A DNA stretch of 64,000 bases from Pseudoxanthomonas sp. YR558 (GTDB taxonomy: Bacteria > Pseudomonadota > Gammaproteobacteria > Xanthomonadales > Xanthomonadaceae), in the NCBI RefSeq assembly GCF_900116385.1, contig NZ_FPCI01000001.1, positions 2,391,501 to 2,455,500 on the forward strand, read 5' to 3'. The translations under genes and the position numbers were made by a program. The first letter of the stretch is position 1, and each line of letters starts with the position of its first letter. Below the pieces are notes generated by a model that saw nothing but the letters and a program-made list of their open reading frames with translations, made no database searches and was not told the origin of the DNA. This document shows, one piece after another, positions 5,581 to 53,136 of this stretch.

Positions 5581-8500
5581 GTGCACGGCCTGATCCATTT
5601 CTTCAAAGCGGCTTTCCGCCGCCGCATGGCGACCACGCCTGGTGTCCTGCTGGCCGCATTCGCGGTCCTTGCTCCCGCTCACGCGCAAACATCGGTTCAG
5701 AACACCGCGACAGTTGCCTTGCCGCCCGGCGCGACCGTGGTCGACAGCAATGCATCCAACAACACATCGACCGCGACGGTCGGCGTACTGGCGCTGCCCC
5801 GCCTGACGTTGGTCAAGCAGGTCGTCAACAACAATGGCGGCACGGCGCTGGTGACGGCCTGGACGCTGACGGCCACCGGCCCGGCCACGACCATCTCTGG
5901 CGCAACCGGCAGCGCGACGGTCACGTCGGCGGCGGTGCCTGCAGGGACGTATGCACTGGCGGAGTCGGGCGGTGCGGCCGGATACGCCGCCTCCACGTGG
6001 AGCTGCGTCAAGAATGGCGGTGCTGCCGTCCTCGCGAACTCGATCAGTCTGGTGGGTGGCGATGCTGCGACCTGCACTATCACCAATGATGACCAGGCCG
6101 CGACACTGACGCTGGTCAAGACGGTCATCAACGACAACGGCGGCACCGCCACGGTCAGCAACTTCCCGCTGACGGCGACCGGCCCGACCACGATCACCGG
6201 TGTGAGCGGTACGGCGGCCGTGACCAGTGCTTCGGTCAACGCGGGCGTGTACACGCTGTCGGAAGTGACGGCAGCCGGTTACGCCGCAGGCAGCTGGAGC
6301 TGCACGGCCGGGACCTTGTCCGGCAATCAGCTGACGCTGGCCAACGGCCAGAGCGCGAGCTGCTCGATCACCAACAACGACCAGGCCGCGACGCTGACGC
6401 TGGTCAAGACGGTCATCAACGACAACGGCGGCACCGCCACGGTCAGCAACTTCCCGCTGACGGCGACCGGCCCGACCACGATCACCGGTGTGAGTGGCGC
6501 GGCCGCAGTGACCAATGCTTCGGTCAACGCGGGCGTGTACACGCTGTCGGAAGTGACGGCAGCAGGTTACGCCGCAGGCAGCTGGAGCTGCACGGCCGGA
6601 ACCTTGTCGGGCAACCAGCTGACGCTGGCCAATGGCCAGAGCGCGAGCTGCTCGATCACCAACAACGACCAGGCCGCGACGCTGACGCTGGTCAAGACGG
6701 TCGTGAATACCGGCGGAGGTACTGCATCTCCGACCAACTGGACTTTGACCGCGAGTGGACCGACATCCCTCAGCGGTGCGGGTGGTGCAACCGGCCAGGT
6801 TGCCGCCGGCACGTATGTATTGTCCGAATCTACAGGCCCTGTCGATTACGTCGCCGGCAGCTGGAGCTGCACGGCCGGCACGTTGTCGGGAAGCCAGGTG
6901 ACGTTGGTCAACGGACAGTCAGCCACGTGCACCATCGTCAATACGTTCCAGTCTGCCCCCGCGCTGACGCTGGACAAGACCACGAGCACGCCGACGTATG
7001 CGTCGGTGGGCCAGGTGCTGTCGTACAGCTACCTGGTGACCAATAGCGGCAACACGACGATCACGGCGGCCATCACGGTGACCGACGACCGGATCGCGAC
7101 GGTGACGTGCCCGGCGCTGCCGGCCGGTGGCCTGTTGCCGACGCAGTCGATCACGTGTTCGGCGACGTACACGGTGACGCAGGCGGACCTGGATGCGGGC
7201 ACGGTGACGAACATCGCCCGCGCCAGCGATGGCACCACGACCTCGCCGACGGACACGGTGACGGTGACGGCGACGCAGACGCGTGCGCTGACGCTGGACA
7301 AGACCACGAGCACGCCGACGTATGCGTCGGTGGGCCAGGTGCTGTCGTACAGCTACCTGGTGACCAATAGCGGCAACACGACGATCACGGCGGCCATCAC
7401 GGTGACCGACGACCGGATCGCGACGGTGACGTGCCCGGCGCTGCCGGCCGGTGGCCTGTTGCCGACGCAGTCGATCACGTGTTCGGCGACGTACACGGTG
7501 ACGCAGGCGGACCTGGATGCGGGCACGGTGACGAACATCGCCCGCGCCAGCGATGGCACCACGACCTCGCCGACGGACACGGTGACGGTGACGGCGACGC
7601 AGACCTCCTCTCAGAGCCTGGTGAAGGCGCTGACCGGTGACAGCACCGGTGGTGCGGTCGCGGTGGGCGACGTGCTGACCTACACGGTCACGATGACCAA
7701 TACTGGCAACACGACGCTGACCGGCGTGGTGGTGAGCGATGCGCTGATCACCCCGAACAGCACCACCTGCCCGAATGTGGCGCCGGGTGCGACCTGCCAG
7801 CTGGTGGGTACGTACACGGTGACCCAGGCCGACGCCGATGCGGGCAACATCCGCAACACGGCGGTGGTGACCAGTCTGGTCTGCGCGGTGGGCAGCACCG
7901 ATCCGGCGTGCACGACGACGATCGACACCCCGGTGCCGCAGACGCCGTCGCAGACGCTGGTGAAGGCGCTGACCGGTGACAGCACCGGTGGTGCGGTCGC
8001 GGCGGGCGACGTGCTGACCTACACGGTCACGATGACCAATACTGGCAACACGACGCTGACCGGCGTGGTGGTGAGCGATGCGCTGATCACCCCGAACAGC
8101 ACGACCTGCCCGAATGTGGCGCCGGGTGCGACCTGCCAGCTGGTGGGTACGTACACGGTGACCCAGGCCGACGCCGATGCGGGCAACATCCGCAACACGG
8201 CGGTGGTGACCAGTCCGGTCTGCCCGGTGGGCAGCACCGATCCGGCGTGCACGACGACGATCGACACCCCTGTCGTGAATCCGGTTGTGACCTACACCAA
8301 GTCGGTCGCGCTCCCCATTGGCCAGACCGAAGTTTCGACGGGCGACACCCTCACCTACACGTTGAACGTGCAGGTCATGGCTGCGACAACCACATCCATC
8401 GTGACCCTGACCGATACCCTGGGAGCCGGCCTGACGCTGGCGACCGTATCGGGCGGCAGTTTCTCCTGCGGCACTGCGAACCCGCTGGTATGTACGTTGC

Positions 8501-52400: not shown

Positions 52401-53136
52401 GACGCTGGTATCGCTGGAAGGTGCCCCCGGTCCCGTGCTGCTAATGACGCTGGACCGCATCGATCCGGGCGCCGAGGTGATCCTCGCCTACCGGGTGCGG
52501 ATCGGCGTGGGCGCGCTGGAGGGTGATGGCATCAACCGTGCTCATGCGGAATGCCGGCCGTTCATCTCGTCGACGTCGACCCAGACCTGCTCCAATGAAG
52601 ATCAATGGGAGGTGGATGTGACCGCCGGCGTGTTCTCGGACGAAGGCGGCATCCTTGGCCAGATATTCGTCGACTGCAATCTCAATGCAGTGAAGGACAG
52701 GGAGGAAATCGGGATTCCTGGCGTACGGCTCTACCTCGAGGACGGCACGTACCTGGTGAGCGACGTGGAAGGCAAGTACAGCTACTGGGGCTTGCGTCCC
52801 ACCACGCACGTACTCAAAGTGGATGCCCGCACGCTCCCCACGCGTAGCCGGTTGGTCACCAGCAGCCCGCAGAATGCCGGCGATGCGCAGAGCCTCTTCA
52901 TCGATCTGAAGAAGGGCGAGCTGCACCGCGCCGATTTCATCGAAGGCTCGTGCAATAACGAGGTTATAGAACAGGTCAAGGCCCGCCGCGCGCAGGGAGA
53001 GATCCGTTCGGTGCAGACCGAGACGGGTCAGCCTGGATTGAAGCTGGAATCGAAGCCGCATCCGCAGGGCAATCCACCGCAGCAAGGCACGGATGCAGCA
53101 AACCAGCCCATCGAACGCGTGCGCCATCAGCCTTGA
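46459..53136 (+). CDS. Giant secreted DUF11/SpaA-like repeat protein of island 2
   Basis: The product is 2225 residues. The signal peptide is long ([16 protein letters not shown] at about 34-49). About 1000 residues of beta-rich N-terminal region with DUF11 units lead to an SdrD-B-like domain ([31 protein letters not shown]), then six SpaA/prealbumin-like repeats ([13 protein letters not shown] ... CTITNDDQ), two further DUF11 units, and a C-terminal module [55 protein letters not shown]. The last matches the module just before the OmpA domains of the 5581 product. The tail is hydrophilic and Pro/Gln-rich. Likely a very long surface stalk or adhesin; role inferred. Confidence 0.85.
   Translation: [2225 protein letters not shown]
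49999..51780 (+). repeat. Six tandem SpaA/prealbumin-like coding repeats
   Basis: Units of about 97-101 codons each begin with LTL(V/M)K and end with ND(D/E). Unlike the repeats in the 5581 gene they differ from one another at many bases, so they are older or have not been homogenised. Confidence 0.85.

Follow-up and report, generated by a model that had tools for sequence, protein, structure and literature searches.

The 64,000-nucleotide stretch of the Pseudoxanthomonas sp. YR558 genome analyzed here (contig NZ_FPCI01000001.1, positions 2,391,501 to 2,455,500; hereafter the window) contains two gene islands, each of which encodes a long repeat protein, a predicted outer-membrane barrel and an OmpA-type domain, and a third island of this kind lies elsewhere in the same genome. 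We judge it somewhat probable that the three islands are versions of a single three-module surface-display machine that consists of a repeat stalk with a C-terminal module (CTM), a giant barrel and an OmpA anchor. The association of barrel, CTM-bearing stalk and OmpA is well supported by sequence comparison, and the basis in hand consists of homology, co-occurrence, fusions in several combinations and a predicted barrel. Beyond this, we infer a physical complex of the parts, export of the stalk through the barrel, a plug role for the CTM and a function in adhesion.

Three islands and their shared modules

The features of the two islands in the window are as follows.

5581..11136, + strand: island 1 repeat protein P0001, with a signal peptide (judged by eye), a SpaA_2/DUF7507/DUF11 stalk, a CTM and an OmpA domain
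10201..10593, + strand: class I CTM of P0001, containing GIPGVR and LKVDPSTLP (alignment A6, 16 sequences)
10864..11061, + strand: OmpA peptidoglycan-binding domain of P0001 (Pfam core, residues 1791-1856; PF00691, E 2e-11)
11133..14867, + strand: island 1 barrel protein P0002 (class I barrel), start codon uncertain
41990..45322, + strand: island 2 barrel protein P0005 (class II barrel), frame opens at 41930
45267..46373, + strand: island 2 stand-alone OmpA protein P0006, start at 45267 or 45333, with a family-specific N domain and an E. coli-type OmpA domain
46459..53136, + strand: island 2 repeat protein P0007, 2225 aa, with an N-terminal region of ~1000 aa without Pfam match, 6 SpaA_2, 2 SdrD_B, 1 DUF11 and a CTM
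52603..53133, + strand: class II CTM of P0007, with conserved tail (alignment A4, 24 sequences)

A reading made earlier from the letters of this DNA (the sequence-only reading) had described island 1 as DUF11 repeats, a GIPGVR module and OmpA in one chain, followed by a barrel gene. The single chain and the gene order both hold, and the repeats also include SpaA_2 and DUF7507. In the Pfam scan at E 0.01, P0001 matches 4 SpaA_2, 5 DUF7507 and 5 DUF11 domains (the DUF7507 and DUF11 matches may overlap) and one OmpA stretch. Its open frame spans 5494-11136 and its start codon is uncertain, with a GTG at 5581 being plausible. By eye, residues ~1690-1775, just N-terminal of the OmpA domain, resemble a degenerate second OmpA copy; tandem OmpA domains are present in L146, L139 and L108. 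Island 1 is a two-gene unit in which the earliest possible P0002 start overlaps the P0001 stop by 4 bases.

Island 2 had been read as a barrel, a stand-alone OmpA protein and a 2225-residue repeat protein lacking OmpA. This layout holds, and the Pfam scan adds SpaA_2 and SdrD_B to the repeats; it finds PF00691 in both P0006 and P0001 and no OmpA in P0007. The N domain of P0006 is found again in relatives. P0005 carries an invasin/intimin-like Ig domain at residues 67-184, ahead of a predicted barrel region that begins at residue 240.

Both islands that the sequence-only reading had recognized are thus real, and outside the window the genome (G000, 3.79 Mb) encodes one more class II barrel, 46% identical to P0005. 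It belongs to a third island, encoded entirely on one strand, in which the barrel gene is accompanied by genes for an OmpA protein and for a repeat protein of 3199 aa that ends in the same CTM. The three islands have three layouts: a repeat-OmpA fusion followed by the barrel; barrel, OmpA, repeat; and repeat, barrel, OmpA. When the repeat proteins of islands 2 and 3 are compared, the last ~300 aa align at 52% and the remainder gives only weak repeat matches, so that at the sequence level these proteins present a variable stalk against a conserved dock. The N-terminal region of P0007 is recognizable (26-34% identity) in only 8 searched loci besides the window's own, L001. At the Lautropia loci L014, L016 and L017, a second frame similar to this region comes after the first repeat gene behind one barrel, and perhaps one barrel serves two stalks there.

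Homology, co-occurrence and fusion

P0002 and P0005 are related by BLASTP (E 3e-27, 23% identity). Profile comparison of the barrels and of the CTMs had been chosen beforehand as the test of kinship between the islands, and both pairs prove significantly similar. The barrel families built around the two proteins, of 19 and 11 sequences, align over 774 columns (hhalign probability 100%, E 1.7e-46), in agreement with the earlier claim that the two barrels are paralogous, and the two CTMs align with 97.7% probability (E 1.7e-12). The class II CTM is an SdrD_B-like domain with a conserved tail, and as a control it matches internal SdrD_B domains (alignment A8) equally well, with an hhalign E of 3.5e-13. 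The class I CTM in the same control reaches only 10.9% probability (E 0.0028). Given that class I resembles the class II CTM far more than it does internal SdrD_B, we rejected the terminal module as a plain SdrD_B motif. By these profiles the class I and class II modules are related and specialized, and the class II module is an SdrD_B relative. The common GIPGVR / VLKVD-TLP end module that had been proposed therefore stands in part: the CTMs are related, but the SdrD_B controls indicate that the GIPGVR string alone is generic and that the shared terminal feature is the longer "VEG/DGT ... LKVD-TLP" stretch.

A sequence search of the PDB at E 1 found nothing related to P0002 or P0005. Among named organisms, Pseudoxanthomonas and Stenotrophomonas have the closest relatives of the class I barrel. 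P0230 and P0197, from Altererythrobacter atlanticus and Corticibacter populi, are class I barrels that reach 74% identity in the region searched; these species belong to other proteobacterial classes or orders, and the degree of identity suggests horizontal transfer.

We scanned the class II barrel alignment against 84,980 species genomes, confirmed at least 575 relatives, and read the best 80 of these (L010-L089). A CTM lies beside or inside the barrel gene at 75 of the 80 loci, and the other five (L010, L012, L022, L031 and L073) sit on contigs that end early. Three of these five show, behind the OmpA gene, the beginning of a repeat protein like P0007 that is cut short; L010 and L073 are near copies of each other. 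OmpA, as the protein or as its N domain, is present at 66 of the 80. Since these loci were picked by barrel similarity, they are uninformative on how frequently a CTM occurs without a barrel, which we asked separately. In the 119 family genomes, class II CTM matches with E <1e-50 and class II barrel matches with E <1e-100 each number 24 places, and these strong matches fall in one and the same set of 22 genomes, on different contigs in G110 and ~12 kb apart in G034. The parts thus occur together as a rule, the reverse of the pattern in related genomes that would have refuted the sequence-only reading. The class II barrels of two family genomes, G086 and G112, have one in-frame TGA each and are maybe decaying copies or assembly errors. 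In a set of 398 genomes from the phylum, both parts are present in 42, the barrel alone in 13, the CTM alone in 2 and neither part in 341 (Fisher p ~1e-42, a value that ignores shared ancestry). For the 52 CTM places, 35 fall within the barrel's own open frame and 9 map to its strand at a distance of no more than 15 kb; for the other 8 the barrel list contains no partner. All listed genomes entered the genome counts, while the distance count used 51 barrel places, with second segments and the weakest barrel rows omitted, and 52 of the 55 CTM rows, with G217 represented by one of its four.

The modules are also fused to one another. The pattern of fission and fusion between two states that had been noted in the window is borne out and is wider, with OmpA-repeat, repeat-barrel, barrel-OmpA and all-three chains, and the physical complex predicted from it continues to be inference. 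A repeat-CTM-OmpA chain beside a barrel accounts for 33 of 146 tree rows, which form a single, fully supported clade; another 10 rows, of other layouts, fall on the class I side of the tree more broadly. Repeat-CTM-barrel chains occur at 9 of the 80 loci and in 26 of the 146 tree rows. In Sphingomonadales such chains are annotated as ordinary proteins of ~1650 aa, and the CTM-plus-barrel region of one of them matches 1716 database proteins (best 120 of 1716 listed). Barrel-OmpA chains are exemplified by P0072, P0079 and P0114. L110 is an all-in-one frame of 2531 aa, with DUF11 at 969-1085, SdrD_B at 1108-1184, the barrel profile at 1446-2357 and OmpA at 2411-2494, and the all-in-one chains L139 and L131 have DUF11, SdrD_B, OmpA and then the barrel. 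At L144 and L107-L109, OmpA precedes the barrel in the chain and the repeat-CTM gene is separate.

The tree requires the CTM to have switched at least 5 times between the fused and the split state, and the place of OmpA to have changed 13 times when "none" is counted as a state; these counts are rough, being taken from a FastTree tree in which several long branches carry warnings. The fused L113/L114 are nested in an otherwise split clade with support of 97 to 100. The tree set omitted L001-L004 as copies, did not use L005 and L007-L009, and excluded rows shorter than 550 aa. The place of OmpA was assigned with a purpose-built profile. Pfam confirms an OmpA domain within the barrel chain for L110, L131, L139, L140, L144, L148 and L107-L109, and did not confirm one for L143.

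AlphaFold2 predicts ~40 barrel strands in two distantly related barrels, the strands of P0005 beginning at residue 240. P0005 ends with the barrel in the model, and P0002 ends in a region aligned to the P0005 barrel. A passage of a 2020 review (PMC7463736) calls the 36-stranded SprA the largest barrel identified. If the predicted strand count holds, the barrels described here would exceed it. Deinococcus SlpA/SDBC chains are among the better structural matches of the barrel, all of them partial.

A proposed mechanism and its alternatives

In the machine that we propose, the first module would be a long stalk built of isopeptide-type Ig repeats, with a dedicated docking module, the CTM, as its final ~120-180 residues. 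The second would be a giant outer-membrane barrel of ~40 strands, with an Ig-like domain in front in class II, and the third an OmpA domain that binds peptidoglycan. All parts would reach the periplasm by way of signal peptides (seen by eye), the barrel would insert into the outer membrane, and the stalk would pass through it to the surface, N-terminus first. The CTM would act as plug and anchor, staying inside the lumen or beneath it with its C-terminal end in the periplasm, and OmpA would tie the complex to the cell wall. Crossing through the barrel is suggested by an argument from topology. OmpA domains act in the periplasm. Because OmpA is joined after the CTM, and both before and after the barrel, a periplasmic position is expected for the CTM's C-terminal end and for the two ends of the barrel. 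Passages of PMC12617251 treat isopeptide-type stalks as extracellular. If the stalk here, which precedes the CTM and can reach thousands of residues, is likewise outside, the point at which the chain crosses the outer membrane would have to lie within the CTM or directly ahead of it, and the simplest route would be the barrel. That the CTM and its tail are conserved, as opposed to the fast-changing stalks, fits a docking or plugging part.

Several observations weigh against this proposal. OmpA was not found beside the barrel at 14 of the 80 class II loci, nor shown in 14 of the 26 fused tree rows; therefore, OmpA may be dispensable or encoded elsewhere. Among the 14 loci, three contigs end within 700 bases and that of L085 within 1600, and four Lautropia loci, L047 and five fused chains have no OmpA in the stretch examined. 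At the cut-off used, 13 of the 398 genomes have a barrel without a CTM and 2 the reverse, and 8 of the 52 CTM places lack a listed barrel partner, but one of these, G016:C25, adjoins a class I barrel (L120). In L140 the order is DUF11, OmpA (712-814), a weak CTM match and the barrel, so that in residues 712-949 the order is opposite to that of the other fused chains checked. OmpA ahead of the CTM is a misfit with simple threading topology, and since Pfam confirmed this order, our confidence is slightly lowered. The AlphaFold2 model of P0005 has a mean pLDDT of 73, with weak stretches at 191-240, 264-292 and 649-700, and the structural matches (VIA-align lists) cover part of the barrel, with no row spanning the whole.

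The closest functional parallel is the PorE-PorP-type B CTD complex of Bacteroidota (PG1035; SprF-SprB), for which passages of PMC9143113 report pull-down and cross-linking evidence in Porphyromonas and Flavobacterium. There too an OmpA-type peptidoglycan binder and an outer-membrane barrel are combined with a surface protein held by a conserved C-terminal region, which for SprB was used as a 368-aa piece. Unlike the window barrels with their ~40 predicted strands, PorP is a 14-stranded FadL-type barrel with SprA-dependent cargo, and the parts of the window type, unlike those of PorE-PorP, are fused in many combinations. The NCBIfam library includes T9SS sorting-domain models. Scanned against it at E 0.01, P0001 and P0007 show no T9SS sorting-domain family, and P0002 and P0005 match no NCBIfam family, T9SS barrel families (PorP/SprF) included. 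The OmpA domains of the window hit the PorE model with scores far under its cut-off, and TIGR04189 (SprA) gives no match in G000, although it is also silent in all 14 control genomes. By analogy, the machine would work like the PorE-PorP-type B CTD complex but appears to be no member of it.

This parallel gives rise to the strongest alternative, namely that the barrel only receives and docks the CTM, in the way PorP-like barrels do with type B CTD proteins, and that the stalk is exported by another route such as type II secretion. Passages of PMC9143113 state that type B CTD proteins are retained at the surface by SprF/PorP but need SprA for their secretion, and docking alone is compatible with the split gene layouts. 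Yet an anchor of 14 strands is far smaller than the barrel predicted here, and it would be odd for a stalk that is fused to a barrel of its own to be the client of a second translocon; we consider this explanation unlikely, though one to be taken seriously. A connector between outer membrane and cell wall that carries a lattice or sheath, like Deinococcus SlpA, and has no part in adhesion would account for SlpA/SDBC being among the better structural matches and for OmpA anchoring. Sphaerotilus natans and a Leptothrix strain, both sheath formers, carry class II loci (L051, L059). However, the distribution is patchy (50 and 49 of the 119 family genomes by two profiles), a genome may have up to three copies (G000), and the stalks diverge much faster than the dock, unlike a structural lattice. 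The anchor of Deinococcus SlpA/SDBC is SLH-type; here it is OmpA, and there a separate stalk is lacking. We regard such a connector as improbable. Least credible, and in our view very improbable, is a nutrient receptor to which the repeat protein would be an accessory. Some database sources label relatives as TonB-dependent receptors, and most of the top Foldseek rows for the P0005 model are receptors of this kind, though at TM <0.3. TonB-dependent receptors have 22 strands, not ~40, no Pfam plug or TonB-receptor domain is matched in P0002 or P0005 at E 0.01 (P0005 matches no Pfam family at all), and long stalks are fused ahead of the barrel.

The proposed display machine can also be set against other secretion and adhesion systems. 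The layout of P0001 is like that of the Acinetobacter silvestris fibrillar adhesin B9T28_05395, in which passages of PMC12617251 describe CshA_NR2/GEVED-like domains, a CLIPPER (DUF11) stalk and an OmpA-like anchor in one chain; in a word search, "barrel" and "outer membrane" were absent from the main text of that paper. P0001 has the fibrillar-adhesin layout of signal peptide (by eye), isopeptide-type Ig stalk and OmpA domain, and its adhesive role is putative. The fused relatives outside the window, like type Va autotransporters, have an N-terminal passenger and a C-terminal barrel in one chain. The Pfam Autotransporter barrel has 12 strands, and it is unmatched in P0002, P0005 and the fused chains L110, L112, L087, L083, L139 and L131; type Va also differs in strand number from the ~40 predicted here and from the separate passenger chain of the window. 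No Omp85/POTRA-type Pfam family of two-partner secretion (Vb) was found in P0002 or P0005 at E 0.01. The order of passenger and barrel is opposite to that of inverse autotransporters (intimin/invasin, Ve), whose chain starts with the barrel and has its Ig passenger at the C-terminal end. As for myxobacterial TraA/TraB, P0006 scores 37.3 bits against the TraB family, whose cut-off is 700, and only in the OmpA domain.

The top-ranked results of open-access literature searches contained no description of this gene system. We put forward, tentatively and with more doubt than the three-module reading itself, that it is an unnamed export-and-anchoring system, widespread in Pseudomonadota, in which single-chain barrels of ~40 strands (more than the 36 of SprA) would thread a cross-linked Ig stalk N-terminus first, with the CTM as lumen plug, a peptidoglycan bolt, and modules repeatedly cut and rejoined.

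Neighboring genes and implications

The other window genes considered are the following.

15198-18365 and 18443-23281, + strand: P0003 and P0004, secreted DUF11/SpaA_4/DUF6923 proteins that follow island 1; P0003 also has GEVED
23288-24037, + strand: small protein encoded behind P0004, with the residues QGYWQN and without a Pfam match; secretion judged by eye
24092-26764, - strand: Ser/Thr kinase-TPR protein, behind P0003/P0004, ~9 kb after the island 1 barrel
26941-27017, - strand: tRNA-Arg(CCG) gene, between islands 1 and 2
38122-40875, - strand: Ser/Thr kinase-TPR protein, just upstream of island 2 and divergent
40862-41467, - strand: ECF sigma factor gene, overlapping the kinase-TPR gene upstream of island 2

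P0003 and P0004 have near-identical C-termini and no OmpA is shown in them; proteins with similar ends are encoded elsewhere in the genome (L008, 755 aa; L009, 618 aa). The two kinase-TPR proteins are 31% identical and, with the ECF gene, are possibly local regulators. As parts of the system they were rejected: among the loci outside G000, whose flanks were limited, only L090 has a relative at E 1e-15.

We regard the islands as a form of dedicated-barrel display of adhesins, with a real chance that they represent a new export system. If the machine works as proposed, it would explain how fibrillar stalks of the DUF11/SpaA type cross the Gram-negative outer membrane, and the naturally fused relatives would be ready targets for viewing the barrel with its cargo in place.

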